Source of the DNA: Maricaulis sp.
Lineage (GTDB): Bacteria > Pseudomonadota > Alphaproteobacteria > Caulobacterales > Maricaulaceae
NCBI RefSeq assembly: GCF_017643475.1
Contig: NZ_JAEPNI010000002.1
Span: 124,001 to 188,000, forward strand
Direction of reading: 5' to 3'
Length of the DNA: 64,000 bases
Part shown: positions 10,010 through 17,073 of the stretch, piece after piece
Layout: each line of letters opens with the position of its first letter
Numbering within the stretch: the first letter of the stretch is position 1
Position numbers and translations under genes: made by a program
The notes under the pieces: model-generated
Told to the model about the DNA's origin: nothing
Seen by the model: the letters and a program-made list of their open reading frames with translations, nothing else
Databases searched by the model: none

Positions 10010-11524
10010 ATGACCGATCTCGTTCTCATTCTGGGTGATCAGCTGACGCCCCAGATCTCCAGCCTGTCACAGGCCAGCCCCGAGACGGCCCACATCGTCA
10101 TGGCCGAGGTGACGGATGAGGCGTCCTATGTTCGCCACCACAAACGCAAGCTGGCCTTCACGTTTTCTGCCATGCGCCATTTCCGCGACGCGCTGCGCGC
10201 CGCGGGCTGGAACGTCACCTATTTCACGCTGGACGCTGGTCTAGCGAGCCTTCGCGAGGCCGTTGCCCGCACCCTGCAGGACGGTGCCTACAAGCGTGTT
10301 CTGGTGACCGAGGCGGGGGAATGGCGCCTGCACCAGGAGATGCGCACCTGGGCCGACACGCTGGGCCTGCCGGTGCTTGTCGCGGAGGACGGGCGCTTCC
10401 TTGCCTCCCATGACGACTTCGCGCGCTGGGCGGAGGGCCGCAAACAGCTGCGCATGGAGTATTTCTATCGCGAGATGCGCAAGCGCACAGGCCTGCTCAT
10501 GGATGGTGACAAGCCTGCCGGCGGTCAGTGGAATTTCGACAAGGACAATCGCAAGCCCGCCGAAGCCAGCCTGTTCATGCCACCGCGCCATGCAACACCC
10601 GTGGATGCGGTGACGCAGGAGGTGCTCGACCTCGTCGCAGACCAGTTCGCGGAGCATCCCGGCAGCCTCGACAGGTTCGATTTGCCGGTCACCCGCGCCG
10701 AGGCCGAACAATCGCGTGATCATTTCATGCAACACGCCCTGCCGGGTTTCGGGGATTACCAGGACGCCATGCTGGCCGCAGAGCCCCTGCTCTATCACTC
10801 CAACCTGTCGACAGCGCTCAATGCCGGCCTGCTCGATCCGCTCGATCTGTGCCAGCGAGCAGAGCGCGAATATCGCGACGGTCGTGCCCCGCTCAATGCC
10901 GTCGAAGGCTTCATCCGCCAGATCCTCGGCTGGCGAGAGTATGTGCGCGGGATCTATTGGCGCGAAGGCCCGGATTATGTTCGCCGCAACGCGCTGGATG
11001 CCCGCCGCCCCCTGCCCGACTTCTACTGGACGGGCGAGACGGATATGACCTGCCTGTCCAAGGCCATCGGACAGACCCTGGAACTGGGTTACGCGCATCA
11101 CATCCAGCGGCTGATGGTGACCGGCCTGTTCGCGATGCTGGCGGACGTCGACCCCTTCCAAGTGCACGAGTGGTACCTGGCCGTCTACACCGATGCCTAT
11201 GAGTGGGTGGAGGCGCCCAATGTGATCGGCATGAGCCAGTTTGCCGATGGCGGGCTGTTGGGCTCGAAACCCTATGCGGCCAGCGGTGCCTATATCGATC
11301 GCATGTCGGATTACTGCTCTGGCTGCAAATACGATGTGAAACAGAAAACCGGGCCGACGGCGTGCCCCTTCAATGCGCTCTACTGGGACTTCCTCGCGCG
11401 TCACGACGCGACACTGCGCGGCAATCCGCGGCTTGGGCCCGTCTATCGCAACTGGGACCGCATGGACGCTGACCGCCAGTCCGCCTTGCGCCGCAGTGCC
11501 GAGGCGTTTCTCGCCTCGCTCTAG
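10010..11524 (+). CDS. Iron-sulfur bacterial cryptochrome/(6-4) photolyase (FeS-BCP, PhrB type)
   Basis: 504 aa member of the photolyase-related family that repairs (6-4) photoproducts with FAD, a ribolumazine antenna and a [4Fe-4S] cluster. Four cluster cysteines can be assigned: Cys348 (DMTCLSK), Cys436 and Cys439 (CSGC), and Cys452 (TACPFN). The C-X2-C-X12-C spacing matches the known PhrB pattern (350, 438, 441, 454) with a constant offset of two. The N-terminus (LVLILGDQL) and the FAD region ([19 protein letters not shown]) also fit. It converges on the DUF2256 and second photolyase genes; the stop shares CTAG with DUF2256. Confidence 0.93.
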
Positions 11525-11661
11525 CGCGCGCGGCGACAGCGCTCCGAGCAGTATTTCACCTCGTCCCAGACCTTTTCCCATTTCTTGCGCCACTCGAAAG
11601 GCCGCTGGCAGACCGCGCAGGTCTTGGTTGGCTTGGGTTGGCGGGCGGAATGACGGGCCAT
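11521..11661 (-). CDS. DUF2256 small zinc-binding-like protein
   Basis: 46 aa. Four cysteines in two CXXC/CXXXC-type pairs (TCAVCQRPF and YCSERCRR) flank [12 protein letters not shown], the signature of DUF2256, a family often encoded beside photolyases. Function unknown; the cysteines suggest a zinc knuckle. Its ATG at 11661 lies one base beyond the TGA stop of the second photolyase gene, so the pair should be translationally coupled. Confidence 0.85.
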
Positions 11662-11662
11662 C

Positions 11663-13183
11663 TCAAAGCCCCAGCGTCAGTTGATTGGACGGTTTGCCGC
11701 CGGATCGTGCCGGCGAACGTCGGCGGCCGGACCGGCTGGCGTGCTTGCGTACGATGCTGGCCGCCTCATCGCGAAAGCCCGGCGCCTTGCGTGCCGCGTG
11801 GATCCGCTCACGCGCGGCCCGTGCCGCCGCAGCGACATCGACAATCGGCGCAGGATAAGCGCCCGGGGCTGCAGCAGCGCGCGTGGACCACTTCCAGGGC
11901 TCATGCAGGAAACCGTCAGGTATATCGGCCAGCTCCGGGCACCATTGCCGGATGAAGACACCGTCTGGGTCCTGGTCATGTCCCTGTTTGACCGGGTTAT
12001 AGATGCGGATCGTGTTGATCCCCGTCGTACCGGACTGCATCTGGATCTGGGACCAGTGAATGCCAGGCTCATAGTCGAGGAACATGCGCGCCAAGTGCTG
12101 TCCCGACGACTGCCAAGGCTGCCAGAGATGATAACTGGCGAAGGAAACGAGCATGGCCCGCATGCGAAAATTCAGCCAGCCCGTGCGGTTGAGCGAACGC
12201 ATACAGGCGTCGACAAAGGGAATACCGGTCTGCCCCTCGCGCCAGGCCGCCATGCGCGCTTCATCGACCGCGTCGCGCTCGAGTCCTGAAAGCCCCGGGT
12301 GCAGGTTGTCAAATTCGATCGAGGGCTGGTCTTCCAGCTTCTGCATGAAATGGTCGCGCCATTGCAGCCGGGACCGGAAACTCTGCAACGAGCCGCGCCA
12401 ATGGCGTCCCACCGCGCCAGCGGGGACATCCGCTCGGCGATCTTGCAGACGGTGGTAAACCTCGCGGACGCTCATCACCCCAAGGGCCAGATAGGGCGAA
12501 AGCCGAGAACACGCTGCTGCACCGTCCAGCGGACTCGACATGGCCGAACGGTAGAACTCACCGCGTTCAAGCAGGAAACCTTCAAGCACGCGCTCGGCGG
12601 CATGGCGACCTCCGGCCTGCCCGGCCCGCTCAGGCTGCAAACCCAGCTCTTGCGGCTCAGGCACCCTGTCATGCCGGACATCCGGCGCTGGCTGCAGGAC
12701 CGGACGGTCGGCGACCGGCGCAGCGACATGGCGTTGCCAGTTGCCGGCCCAGCCATCGCGCGACGGCAGCCGCCGGATTACGCCGCCCTGGCTCAGCTCG
12801 TTCCACTCGACCGACAAATTGCGCAAGGCCTGCGCCACGGCGAGATCGCGTCGATAGGTCCAGGCATTGCCGGTTTCCTCGTGAGACCACAGCGTGCAGT
12901 CGGGAAACTGGCGAGTGAGATCTGCGAGGATATCGACGGCATCACCGACGCGAATACAGAGCAGGCTGCCCAGCGCCTGCAAATCCGCATTCAGCCCCTC
13001 GAGGCATTGCTGGAGGAAATCATACTGACGACCAGAGACATCTTCCTGGCGCCAGAATTCCGGCTCGACGATATAAAGCGGCAGGACAGGCCCAGCCGCA
13101 GACGCCTCGCGCAGGGCGAGGTGATCGCTGACCCGCAGGTCGCGCTTGAACCAGAGAATTTGAACAGGACCAGAGCTCGCCAT
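11663..13183 (-). CDS. Photolyase/cryptochrome superfamily protein (FAD-binding)
   Basis: 506 aa. The N-terminal Rossmann-like antenna domain starts [16 protein letters not shown]. The C-terminal FAD domain contains [30 protein letters not shown] and [20 protein letters not shown], and the loop [13 protein letters not shown]. The last about 40 residues are strongly basic and could contact DNA. It probably repairs cyclobutane dimers with light, but the subgroup (and so CPD repair versus signalling) cannot be fixed by eye. It is followed after 1 nt by DUF2256. Confidence 0.88.
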
Positions 13184-13215: not shown

Positions 13216-13572
13216 CTAGCCTTCCGCTTCAGCAGCAGAGGACTTGGCGGTAACACCAGCCCGCTCGAGCTCCGGTCCGAGCTTGCCCATCAGGAACATG
13301 CCGAACATCTTGTAGTCCGCGATCAGCGACCACAGCGGATAGGTAAAGGTCGCCGGCTTGTTGTGCTCGACAAAGGCATGGCTGACCCAGGCGAAGAAAT
13401 AACCCGAAACCGGAACAGCCAGCAGCAATAACCAGGTCTGGCTGATCAGCGCCCCCAGCAGGACCGCGATCGCCAGAGTCGAACCGACATAATGCCAGGC
13501 GCGAGTCGCCGGGTCGGAGTGTTCACGCAGGTAAAAGGGCCAGAACTCGCCGAATGTATTGTATTCTCTCAT
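13216..13572 (-). CDS. DUF962/Mpo1-like membrane protein
   Basis: 118 aa with two to three membrane segments (about 29-62) and the family motifs HYVGSTLA and SHAFVEHNKPATF. The yeast homologue Mpo1 is an iron-dependent dioxygenase in phytosphingosine alpha-oxidation; the histidines in HYVG and SHAFVEH could be metal ligands here, but the bacterial substrate is unknown. It lies 32 bp upstream of the second photolyase gene on the same strand. Its upstream region carries several GANTC sites. Confidence 0.8.
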   Translation of the reverse strand: MREYNTFGEFWPFYLREHSDPATRAWHYVGSTLAIAVLLGALISQTWLLLLAVPVSGYFFAWVSHAFVEHNKPATFTYPLWSLIADYKMFGMFLMGKLGPELERAGVTAKSSAAEAEG

Positions 13573-13740
13573 TTCAAACCTCCCCGATTCGCCGTTCGGA
13601 TCAGTATGGCATAGTGATTCGCGGTCAATAAAGCGCCGGGTGATGGTAAATACCGACTCTTCAGAGTCCGCTGTATTTTGATGATTCCATTAGGGATTCA
13701 TCAAGGACAATAAACCAATTCCCCAATTCTACCCATTGAA

Positions 13741-13755
13741 TTAACCCTCCATTAA
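13741..13755. promoter_or_regulatory. Perfect CtrA box TTAA-N7-TTAA
   Basis: TTAACCCTCCATTAA matches the consensus of the cell-cycle regulator CtrA exactly (TTAA, seven bases, TTAA). It lies intergenically about 80 bp upstream of an orphan intrinsic terminator, with no protein gene between them. If it spans the -35 region of a rightward promoter, transcription would begin near 13780. Confidence 0.6.
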
Positions 13756-13777
13756 GAGATTCGGCCCGATGTTTTAC

Positions 13778-13850
13778 CCGTCTTCCCGTGAAGACACCCC
13801 ACCATCCACCCAATGCCTTTTCGGGAGCCTTCGTGGCTCCCGATTTTTTT
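13778..13850 (+). ncRNA. Candidate small RNA ending in an orphan terminator
   Basis: The expected start downstream of the CtrA box coincides with a small hairpin GTCTTC-CCGT-GAAGAC (13780-13795). A C-rich unpaired linker follows (ACCCCACCATCCACCC), then a strong intrinsic terminator. The predicted transcript is about 70 nt: 5' hairpin, C-rich single strand, terminator. C-rich unpaired segments in alphaproteobacterial sRNAs often pair with Shine-Dalgarno sequences. No open reading frame uses this terminator. The exact 5' end is inferred. Confidence 0.5.
13821..13850 (+). terminator. Strong intrinsic terminator
   Basis: TCGGGAGCC and GGCTCCCGA form a 9-bp perfect stem with a 5-base loop (TTCGT), followed by seven Ts (13844-13850). 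It points rightwards, away from the DUF962 gene on the other strand, and lies 90 bp before tRNA-Asn. Confidence 0.85.
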
Positions 13851-13940
13851 GCAGCAAACGGGTGCGATTACCGCTTTTGGGTGCTTGCGCTTTTGCCCAA
13901 CGCTCTGATAAAAGCCCGGTCTCGCTTGTGAGAACGGTAT

Positions 13941-14016
13941 TCCCCTGTAGCTCAGTTGGTAGAGCAGGTGACTGTTAATCACCGGGTCGGCGGTTCGAGC
14001 CCGTCCGGGGGAGCCA
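13941..14016 (+). tRNA. tRNA-Asn (anticodon GTT)
   Basis: 76 nt. The acceptor stem TCCCCTG (13941-13947) pairs with CGGGGGA (14006-14012) with one T-G pair, then G and an encoded CCA. Anticodon stem GGTGA/TCACC with loop CTGTTAA; GTT at 13974-13976. Confidence 0.96.
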
Positions 14017-14131
14017 TTCTCAAGCGAGGTTTCCAGAACAAGACGCCAGACACGCCGCTGACAGTGATTACATCAGCGCGGGCAATCAGTGCGCCTTGCG
14101 CCGCGCCCCAGGACCAAACTGCGAGATCTCC

Positions 14132-15250
14132 ATGAAACTTTCCACGCTTGTTGCCCTTCCCCTCTCCTGCCTGGCCCTGGTGGCCTGTGGCCAGTCCACT
14201 GAGGCGCCTGGGGAAACAGGAGAAGCGGTACGAGCCGATTCGCAAACCAGTGCCTTTGCGCCCATCGTTGACAGCTGGGCGGAGCGGACGCGGTTCAGCG
14301 GCAATGTCCTGGTCGTGCGGGAGAATGAGCAGATTTTCGAAACCTCGTTCGGTTTGGCCAACCGCGAGGCGAATATCCCTGTCGATGCCGACACATCCTT
14401 TGTTGTCGCCTCGCTGACCAAGACCTTCACAACCGTGCTCACCCTGCAAGCGGTCGAGGCGGGGCGACTGGAGCTTGATGCGAGCTTGGCCTCTGTCCTG
14501 CCGGAGTTCGTGGCGCCCTGGGCCAACACGGTCACGGTGCGCCAGATGCTGCAGAACCGCAGCGGCCTGCCGCACTATATCGACCTGCCGGGCTGGTTCG
14601 AGCCGGGCGGGAAACTGCCTTATACCCGCGAGCACCTGCTGGACACGCTCGCCAGCATGCCGCTGCGCTTTGAACCCGGCACGGAGTATTATTACTCGAA
14701 CGCCAATTTCTATCTGCTCGGCCTGATCCTCGACCGGGTCGGCGACCAGCCCTATGAGCAGCAATTGATCAGCCAGTTGCTTGAACCTGCAGGCCTCACG
14801 GCCACCGGCCAGATTTACCAACAGGACGAGAGGCTTCGCCTGGCAGGCAACTACATGCCCGACGAAGACGGTGGCTATTTCCAGGTCGAGATAGAAAACC
14901 CGGCGGTCTTCCGAGCTACGGGCAGCCTGCATGCAACAGCCACCGACCTACTGGCCTGGGGGCAGGCCATGATGCGAGGTGATTTCCTCAGCCAGGAGAG
15001 CCAGGCTGTCATGCTCGACCCAGACCAGCCCATGACCTGGATCCTGACCGAGGTTCCGACACTCGATGACAGCGAGATGATCGCGGTCCGCACCTATAAC
15101 GGACGCATTGCCGGCCATGTTTCGATGCTCACCCTGTTGCCGCAATCGCAGGAAATCGTCATCGTGATCTCCAATAATGGCGTGGATTACGGCGAGCTGG
15201 CAGGTCTGAGCGTGGAAATCGCCCAACACCTTCACGCCGGAGCGAACTGA
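14132..15250 (+). CDS. Serine hydrolase lipoprotein (beta-lactamase/PBP fold)
   Basis: 372 aa. The start is the ATG at 14132, which opens a lipoprotein signal peptide with lipobox ALVAC (lipidated Cys about residue 19); a longer in-frame start would spoil the signal. The nucleophile motif is SLTK (VVASLTKTF) and the second motif is YSN (YYYSNANFY), as in class C beta-lactamase-like peptidases and esterases. It is probably anchored on the periplasmic side; the substrate is unknown. A second serine hydrolase of the same superfamily is encoded convergently just downstream. Confidence 0.87.
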   Translation: MKLSTLVALPLSCLALVACGQSTEAPGETGEAVRADSQTSAFAPIVDSWAERTRFSGNVLVVRENEQIFETSFGLANREANIPVDADTSFVVASLTKTFTTVLTLQAVEAGRLELDASLASVLPEFVAPWANTVTVRQMLQNRSGLPHYIDLPGWFEPGGKLPYTREHLLDTLASMPLRFEPGTEYYYSNANFYLLGLILDRVGDQPYEQQLISQLLEPAGLTATGQIYQQDERLRLAGNYMPDEDGGYFQVEIENPAVFRATGSLHATATDLLAWGQAMMRGDFLSQESQAVMLDPDQPMTWILTEVPTLDDSEMIAVRTYNGRIAGHVSMLTLLPQSQEIVIVISNNGVDYGELAGLSVEIAQHLHAGAN

Positions 15251-15292: not shown

Positions 15293-15397
15293 ATGCCCTC
15301 CATTCGCCTAATTGCCCTGACCGTCCAGTCCTTTGCCCTTGCAACCTGTGCCAGCGTGCAAGAGCGGCTGGACGATAGGCGATCTCCGAGCACCTAG
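15293..15397 (+). CDS. Possible 34-aa lipoprotein-like ORF or gene stub
   Basis: MPSIRLIALTVQSFALATC begins like a lipoprotein signal peptide (cysteine at 19), but only 15 residues follow. No clear ribosome site is visible. Its TAG shares CTAG with the stop of the converging serine hydrolase. It could be a small lipoprotein, the degraded 5' end of a former gene, or chance. Confidence 0.25.
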   Translation: MPSIRLIALTVQSFALATCASVQERLDDRRSPST

Positions 15398-17073
15398 TCC
15401 TGTCGTGGAAAATCGAGGTTGCGGACGCGATTTCGGTCGACGGTGAGGCCGGTTGACAGGCCGCGCCCATCCCGCACCACCCGGATTCTATAGTCATTCC
15501 AGGTCAGGTAATCGCGTCCCACAAGCTGCAGCGTTCTGGGTCGATCATTCTTGACCATGACATACTCACCGTCCGCCGTGTGTTGAAGAATGATCTCCGT
15601 TTCCGTTTCGGCATTGAAATAACGTCCTTCGATGCTGGCGGGATAGGTCTCTTCATCGGGAGTTGGCGGGACTTGCTGTGCGAATTGCGGGCTCTGGCTG
15701 GGCGCATAGAGCGCGAACCCTCGCCGCCCCTCGGCAGACTGTGTCAGCGTGAGCCGGAGATTCGGATTTGTCTCGTAGTGATAAAGATTGTCAGCTTCGG
15801 GGATCAACCTGACCGGCTCGCGCCATTCGATTTCCCTGAACAGATCTCCATCGCGTGAGACCAGCCGGACAAATGTCCCGCTGTCCAGTTCGTACAGTCC
15901 GAGAAAGCCATCTAGGGAGCCGATATCGCTGATCACGTCAGGACCAGCGGGATAGGTCGCTGCATCGGTGAAGACATTGTCAAAGGCAAGATTGGCTGTG
16001 CGCACGGCCAGCGCGACCGCGCTGATATTGCGATTATTGCTTACAACCACGATCGACGCCTGAAAATCGGGAAACCGCAAGACATGGGTATTGTAACTGC
16101 CCGTTGCCCCCTCATGGAAGACGGTCCGGGCGCCGCGGTAAAAACCAAACTCCAATCCGTAACCATAGGCCGGGTTGGACAATCCCTCGATCGGGCGCTG
16201 GCTCATCTCGATCAGGTCATCAGGCAGGCTTCTGTCTGCACCCCAGATCTGGGTTTCCCAGCGCAGCAGATCCGGTAGCGAGGCATACATGAAACCGTCG
16301 CCTTGGGTATTGGCGATATCCGCATCCTCCAGCCAGCCGGAGCCATAATTGCCATAGGCTCGCGCCAGCCGCGGAATGACAACGCCATAACGCCGCCGAA
16401 TACTGGAATCCCCCAGTCCGCGCTCGGAGAGGAAGCGGGTTGCGTAGACGTGAAACGGTTCATCGACAACCGCAGAGACAAGTTCGGCCAGCAGGATATA
16501 ATTGGAATTGCTGTACCGATAATCCGTGCCCGGCTCAAAATTGAGCGCGACCTGACGGTTGAGTAATGTCAGCGCTGTGCGATTGTCGAAATCGGTTTCA
16601 TACCAGGTGGCATTGGTAATGAAGTAGAGGTCATAGACGTCACGAATTCCGCTGGTGTGATTGATCAACTGACCCACCGAGATTGGCGGATCAATCCCCT
16701 CCATCACACCGGGTAGATAGGTCCTGAAGTCCTGCGACAGGTCCACGCGACCGGATTGCGCGAGCTCCAGCACCATCAGCGCCGTGTATTGCTTGGCGAC
16801 CGACGCAATATTAAAGCGCGTGCTTGCGTCGATCGGTGTCGGCGTATCGAGATTGGCCAAGCCTGCGTAATGGCTGAAGACGACATCACCACCCAGCACA
16901 ATGCCGACACCGGCGCCAGGCTGGCCGGGCTCGACCATTTCCTCGACTAGCCTGCTTATGGCCTGGACGGCATCGTCCTGGAGTGCTGGCGCAGCTTGAG
17001 CTGCGCTGTTTCCCGGTACAAGCCAAACGGCCACGCTTGCGATGATACACCGCAAATTGATCCAGTTTCCCAC
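15394..17073 (-). CDS. Secreted serine hydrolase (beta-lactamase/PBP fold)
   Basis: 559 aa. GTG start at 17073 after GGGGA. A Sec signal peptide of about 26 residues ends near NSAAQAA with no lipobox cysteine, so the protein is periplasmic or secreted. The catalytic motifs are SVAK (NIASVAKQY, near residue 92) and YSN (YRYSNSNY, near residue 190). The C-terminal about 180 residues form a beta-rich extension of the kind found in DUF3471-like or lipocalin-like tails of these hydrolases. Substrate unknown. Confidence 0.85.
   Translation of the reverse strand: MGNWINLRCIIASVAVWLVPGNSAAQAAPALQDDAVQAISRLVEEMVEPGQPGAGVGIVLGGDVVFSHYAGLANLDTPTPIDASTRFNIASVAKQYTALMVLELAQSGRVDLSQDFRTYLPGVMEGIDPPISVGQLINHTSGIRDVYDLYFITNATWYETDFDNRTALTLLNRQVALNFEPGTDYRYSNSNYILLAELVSAVVDEPFHVYATRFLSERGLGDSSIRRRYGVVIPRLARAYGNYGSGWLEDADIANTQGDGFMYASLPDLLRWETQIWGADRSLPDDLIEMSQRPIEGLSNPAYGYGLEFGFYRGARTVFHEGATGSYNTHVLRFPDFQASIVVVSNNRNISAVALAVRTANLAFDNVFTDAATYPAGPDVISDIGSLDGFLGLYELDSGTFVRLVSRDGDLFREIEWREPVRLIPEADNLYHYETNPNLRLTLTQSAEGRRGFALYAPSQSPQFAQQVPPTPDEETYPASIEGRYFNAETETEIILQHTADGEYVMVKNDRPRTLQLVGRDYLTWNDYRIRVVRDGRGLSTGLTVDRNRVRNLDFPRQD

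Follow-up and report, generated by a model that had tools for sequence, protein, structure and literature searches.

Bacterial small RNAs (sRNAs) are mostly narrow in range. The genome paper for Caulobacter crescentus reports that most of the ncRNAs of this organism are not conserved outside the Caulobacteraceae (PMC4117421). Two Caulobacter sRNAs described in the literature, GsrN and CcnA, use C-rich loops to act on mRNA leaders that carry G tracts. In GsrN the loop pairs with such a tract of the katG leader; CcnA (CCNA_R0094), which is putatively activated by CtrA, has a CCCC loop that contacts GGGG in the ctrA and gcrA leaders. EcpR1, from Sinorhizobium meliloti, is described as an sRNA conserved in alphaproteobacteria and linked to the cell cycle. 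Landt et al. reportedly described, in 2008, four cell-cycle-regulated sRNAs, one of which appears to be CtrA-controlled. The closest described RNA to the one discussed here is CC0196 (Rfam RF01519), which we infer, from its gene number and a 'Cell cycle regulated' label, to be CCNA_R0004 (start 210993, minus strand). The relevant paper (PMC5988900) gives CCNA_R0004 that label in its Table 1, and lists it in C. crescentus with a CtrA half site only, no assigned phase and low 5' RACE counts, data that speak against strong cycling in this organism.

Layout of the locus

The features below lie in and around one gap in the window, by which we mean the whole 64-kb stretch of DNA that was analysed.

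13216–13572, minus strand: Mpo1-like gene, divergent
13741–13755, plus strand: CtrA box TTAA-N7-TTAA (TTAACCCTCCATTAA, an exact match), over the -35 region
13768–13773, plus strand: -10-like element GATGTT, from the promoter alignment; its second base (A) and its sixth (T) are the most conserved
13780–13795, plus strand: 5' hairpin GTCTTC-CCGT-GAAGAC, 16 nt, from the fold; predicted transcript start at or near 13780
13796–13820, plus strand: C-rich linker, predicted unpaired, with the near-invariant core ACCCCACCAU, from alignment and unpaired probability
13821–13850, plus strand: intrinsic terminator, a 9-pair stem (13821–13843) and seven Ts (13844–13850)
13780–13850, plus strand: entire sRNA as predicted (about 71 nt), corresponding to Caulobacter CC0196; 103.7 bits under covariance model R1, the building set of which includes the window sequence itself
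13884–13912, plus strand: promoter-like pattern CTTGCG-N17-GATAAA ahead of tRNA-Asn, outside the sRNA unit; a putative promoter
13941–14016, plus strand: tRNA-Asn(GUU), conserved neighbour downstream

A sequence-only reading of this DNA had proposed a CtrA-controlled sRNA here, and the box at 13741–13755, the 16-nt hairpin, the C-rich linker and the seven-T terminator are all found where it placed them. The exact box occurs once in the window, against a chance expectation of 0.04, and 4 of 100 shuffles contained one. The strand 13780–13851 (72 nt) folds as two hairpins and an open linker at -26.2 kcal/mol (z -5.7), an energy that none of 200 shuffles matched. At gathering scores Rfam finds two tRNAs in the whole window and nothing else, and a DNA search of the genome returns the element once, as a single copy. 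The same reading had called the element free of ORFs. Mechanical ORFs do overlap it, at 13769–13978 (69 aa, plus strand) and, on the minus strand, at 13661–13813 and 13752–13982, but no conservation backs any of them as coding: in relatives the bases immediately 5' of the hairpin vary, and in many other genera the ATG of the linker is replaced by AACGCC or similar. A coding peptide is ruled out, the overlapping ORFs not being conserved in relatives.

The reading we favour, and consider probable, is that the element specifies a free-standing, CtrA-activated, trans-acting sRNA of about 71 nt, the C-rich linker of which base-pairs with mRNA leaders rich in G. Its sequence-based grounds are the arrangement of the gene, the predicted structure, the conservation, the box with its -10 signature, and the synteny; transcription, binding and activation by CtrA, cell-cycle timing and the pairing mechanism are what we infer from them, as follows. 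Phosphorylated CtrA would bind the TTAA-N7-TTAA box over the -35 region and turn on transcription, which would proceed from the -10 element at 13768–13773 with a start at or near 13780, until RNA polymerase halted at the intrinsic terminator near 13850; the tRNA-Asn downstream would be transcribed from its own promoter. In the product, a short hairpin at the 5' end would be followed by the exposed C-rich linker and then by the hairpin of the terminator, ending in a U tail. The linker core, ACCCCACCAU, most likely pairs with several mRNAs, at ribosome sites or at leaders rich in G, and this pairing would alter their translation while CtrA is active.

Range, structure and the C-rich linker

A DNA search of 41 genomes, the window's own included, found the element in 19/19 of the genus (own genome counted), in 4/6 from other genera of the family and in 0/16 from other families; such a search is insensitive, and one of the four other-genus matches (G020) spans the upstream part only, L023 being without the core. 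An exact search of genome contigs with a 23-base pattern yielded 51 loci, and those named to genus come from Maricaulis, Oceanicaulis, Glycocaulis, Hyphobacterium, Marinicauda, Woodsholea, Euryhalocaulis, Alkalicaulis and Robiginitomaculum.

Two covariance models, covering hairpin, linker and terminator, carried the search further, as the sequence-only reading had suggested for related genomes. R1 was built from 22 sequences, all from the same family as the window and none from Caulobacter, and R2 from 69. R1 matches 134, and R2 181, of 200 genomes of the order, many of which also contributed sequences to the models; by hand count, 151 of the R2 matches lie at E<=1e-6, and the 30 weaker ones, 23 of them in family f5, are regarded as uncertain. 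In a second order (that of G212) R2 matches 59 of 60 genomes. Most of a sample of the class is without a match under the model used: 23 of 385 genomes match, 5 of these within the order. Of the 18 outside it, 14 carry the core with tRNA-Asn further downstream, and by eye every one of them also has a TTAA-type box, which in G426 is on the second contig; the other matches, in G352, G517, G515 and G246, are weak, lack the core or the tRNA-Asn context, and are not taken as genuine. A phylum-wide draw gives a rough feel for the false-positive level. Of its 398 genomes 22 match, and 18 of these belong to the order; another 3, G833 and G913 among them, are weak and fall elsewhere in the class (E 2.6e-5 to 8.4e-5), and 1, G661, falls outside the class (E 3.8e-4). 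To judge from its sequence and spread, the putative sRNA looks like a real, conserved gene. A second, diverged copy lies at 2045–2114 of L121 (G128:C22), with no tRNA within 4.1 kb around it, and G642, G643 and G085 also have two matches per genome.

In 63 distinct sequences, 98.7% of pair cells hold standard pairs. Two-sided changes occur in 10 of 14 pairs, and the covariation score is 0.449, versus a shuffled mean of 0.120, in an alignment that was fitted to the model's structure and is hence biased towards it; sliding the pair partners abolishes the signal. Most of this support sits in the terminator, where all 8 modelled pairs have changed on both sides in relatives, and any terminator might show the same. 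The 5' hairpin is nearly invariant, with 98.9% of cells paired and two-sided changes in 2 of 6 pairs across the same 63 sequences. The linker core is near-invariant too, being ACCCCACCAU or, in many family-f2 loci, ACCCACCAU, and it is predicted to be unpaired: over the 62 sequences (of 63) in which it could be placed, the mean probability is 0.90, and in 61 of them it is at least 0.8.

What the linker might pair with was sought in several ways. That it pairs with mRNAs at G-rich leaders or ribosome sites is our best guess, by analogy with the C-rich loops of GsrN and CcnA and from the build of the RNA itself. Allowing up to 3 mismatches, the complement of a linker 17-mer has 12 non-self sites in the window's own genome, and its reversed control has 0. 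One of the 12 lies at a ribosome site and is conserved in only part of the genus. The gene after thiL (thiL named by eye) was considered as a target and rejected, being at best lineage-specific across 16 genus loci. The site, at -20 to -4 before the presumed start ATG in L170, has a strong counterpart in L182, L183 and L187 and a partial one in L184, L185 and, by eye, L196; in the other 10 loci it is absent or unclear. The seed pattern TGGTGGGGTN{0,13}ATG has 45 matches in 19 genomes versus 20 for the reversed control; the matches are scattered, and no conserved ribosome site was seen among the 28 of the 45 that were examined (two of these not located). When the ctrA leaders of 16 genus genomes were tried, the best duplex converged in 12 on a common stretch around -50, which the window's own genome lacks. 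Scrambled linkers equalled it in 47–132 of 200 trials for those 12 leaders, and other segments of these loci often did too; ctrA mRNA, no better than such controls, was set aside as a target.

That no conserved mRNA target emerged from these limited searches (own genome, genus leaders and seed-plus-ATG scan) counts towards a different use of the same strand: the RNA may be real and CtrA-driven but use its C-rich linker to bind a protein and not mRNAs, acting for instance as a sponge for some RNA-binding protein. In our judgement the linker core is also stricter than expected of a single pairing seed. The length of the linker and its 3' half, however, differ between families, as in seed-type sRNAs, and the C-rich strands of GsrN and CcnA are described as acting on G tracts in leaders. 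We consider binding of a protein instead of mRNAs unlikely, and retain a trans-acting, mRNA-pairing sRNA as the preferred reading.

Neighbouring genes and predicted promoter

In 76 of 82 loci the element is followed, on its own strand, by tRNA-Asn, at a median distance of 103 nt (range 64–913). The six loci without it are L070 and L032, where the available stretch ends, L121, which is the second copy, L117, where tRNA-Asn is on the other strand, L116 and L141. tRNA-Cys is on the same strand in 46 of the 82, and upstream in those inspected. So constant a neighbour is what would be expected if the element were a cis-acting leader or attenuator of tRNA-Asn, the terminator tuning read-through and the synteny reflecting co-transcription. 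We think this very improbable. CTTGCG-N17-GATAnA, or a close variant, follows the terminator and precedes tRNA-Asn in 18 of 19 genus loci, and this separate, conserved, promoter-like pattern suggests that the sRNA is not simply a tRNA-Asn leader; the terminator is strong, with a U run; the gap reaches 913 nt; and the second copy, in G128, has no tRNA in the surrounding 4.1 kb.

The other flank varies: an Mpo1-like gene in the window, tRNA-Cys in many loci and different proteins elsewhere, in some loci one resembling PCMT (read by eye). Since this flank changes while the distance between box and hairpin stays, the box goes with the sRNA. Upstream of the box, at window positions 13690–13725, most genus loci share a second conserved block, GATTCCATTAGG ... 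GCAAGGAC.ATAAACC, which may serve the divergent Mpo1-like gene as its promoter, or act as an upstream element. Further out, the window holds two facing photolyase-type genes at 10010–13183, for a DPRP photolyase-related protein (plus strand) and an FAD-binding DNA photolyase (minus strand), and, at 14096–15250 and 15394–17073, neighbouring PF00144 Beta-lactamase family genes (serine hydrolase type) on opposite strands.

Promoters of the CtrA-activated class carry TTAA-N7-TTAA over the -35 region and a -10 element at a set distance, and the predicted promoter in the window has this layout, with the box over the -35 region and a -10 element at the right distance. In all of 69 aligned loci the best match to the box has at least 7 of 8 letters; it lies 23–25 nt 5' of the hairpin in 67, and in the other two, L072 and L121, an equal match is found at that distance by eye. 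Random 60-nt windows drawn from these loci, probably mostly coding and less AT-rich than a promoter, served as controls: of 1877, 7 scored 7 and none scored 8. A larger set of 112 distinct promoters was selected by the RNA and not by the box, many of them from one genus, with duplicates and loci with less than 60 nt upstream dropped, L076–L105 left out and ties broken towards 24 nt; here the box has at least 7 of 8 letters at 23–25 nt from the hairpin in 112/112, and is perfect in 65. Two Caulobacter-type loci (L106 and L108) have TTCA as the first half of the box. When the 112 promoters are aligned on the first base of the hairpin, position -11 is A in 89 of them and position -7 is T in 95, a signature that fits a -10 hexamer and points to a start at or near that base. 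A generic sigma-70 scan found no promoter here, as expected if the CtrA box replaces the -35 element. CtrA is encoded in all 25 genomes searched, the window's own included.

On this promoter evidence, the proposed control of the sRNA by CtrA is well supported at the sequence level. The sequence-only reading had tied its case to the conservation of box and terminator in close relatives; both are kept across the order and beyond, which supports an independent sRNA gene with a CtrA-type promoter. That the box serves instead the Mpo1-like gene, which faces away from the same gap, and that the sRNA has an ordinary, constitutive promoter, is the least probable reading of all, given that the spacing from box to hairpin holds in every one of the 112 promoters while the other flank changes.

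A GANTC site, of the kind methylated by CcrM, lies at window positions 13758–13762, between the CtrA box and the hairpin. Such a site occurs in this interval in 27 of the 112 promoters, 17 of them at the same offset; the comparison values are 172 of 4144 for random 24-nt windows and 82 of 778 for windows immediately upstream. The promoters are related, and the counts are hence not independent. Methylation at GANTC could add timing.

Comparison with known RNAs

The CC0196 model of Rfam scores L107 at 65.7 bits (2017–2075), where R1 matches 2013–2079 with E 4.5e-6, and the two models likewise coincide in L106 and L108–L111. Its gathering threshold (35 bits) is reached in 7 of 16 further loci (L106, L108–L111, L113 and L117), all of family f3, which appears to be that of Caulobacter and Phenylobacterium; altogether, 8 of 12 family-f3 loci tried have gathering-level matches, and 0 of 8 loci from other families. 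Of 14 control genomes, Caulobacter vibrioides alone is matched by this model; the window region gives no match to it, even with the cut-off relaxed to E<=5, and the window's own genome gives 0. CC0196 and the window sRNA have in common the hairpin, the ACCCCACCAU core, the terminator and a CtrA-type box, and in L106–L111, as in the window, tRNA-Asn is a neighbour on the same side and strand; the two differ in the 3' half of the linker and in the terminator. The link between them draws on a model built without Caulobacter sequences, together with the shared promoter layout and the shared neighbour. By these sequence criteria, the predicted sRNA of the window is a large extension of the known RNA CC0196, with a conserved CtrA-type promoter.

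Other described RNAs are further removed. CcnA is described as 182 nt long and transcribed inside the replication origin, whereas the window sRNA is about 71 nt and lies beside tRNA-Asn; length and place rule it out as the same RNA. EcpR1 and GsrN are ruled out by different sequence or promoter. By the published accounts, EcpR1 has a dominant form of 101 nt and a GC-rich loop, UCCGCCGCAUCU, lies downstream of divK-pleD and is stress-induced; GsrN has a sigma-T general-stress promoter, and its homologues, limited to the Caulobacteraceae by BLASTn, are typically near general-stress regulator genes. Weak full-length similarity to mmgR/suhB (RF00519) appears in 5 of 21 loci (L107, L146, L153, L159 and L161), at the sRNA itself, with 23–25 bits and E 0.16–1.6, far below the gathering score of 41; a distant tie to the rhizobial mmgR sRNA is possible on this similarity. 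The top permissive Rfam match of the window, to Burkholderia ncS16 (RF02866; 23.1 bits, gathering score 48, E 0.0082), is taken as the common look of a hairpin with a terminator.

In searches of the main text of open-licence papers, no sRNA paper was found for the core sequence, CC0196 or R0138, nor was the breadth of the sRNA or its conserved CtrA-type promoter; the flanking locus tags led to unrelated papers only. If CtrA drives this sRNA, the CtrA regulon has an old and little-noticed RNA output. We give equal weight, for and against, to the broader reading that an ancient sRNA, of which the little-studied CC0196 is only one branch, belongs to the core CtrA regulon in several alphaproteobacterial orders as its post-transcriptional arm, with the same promoter layout and a C-rich effector strand throughout. 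Were CtrA control to hold, the question of whether a conserved riboregulator takes part in the alphaproteobacterial cell cycle would become testable in C. crescentus, a laboratory strain that carries CC0196.

Contrary to what the sequence-only reading had supposed, the sRNA is not wholly new: its Caulobacter counterpart is Rfam CC0196, and a CtrA-linked sRNA, CcnA, had already been published. In contrast to the narrow range of most bacterial sRNAs, RNA, CtrA-type box, -10 element and neighbour are here kept across families and orders, and the single Rfam family, CC0196, misses many of its relatives. What appears to be new is the apparent age of the sRNA, its spread and its consistent link to CtrA; what was known already is CC0196.
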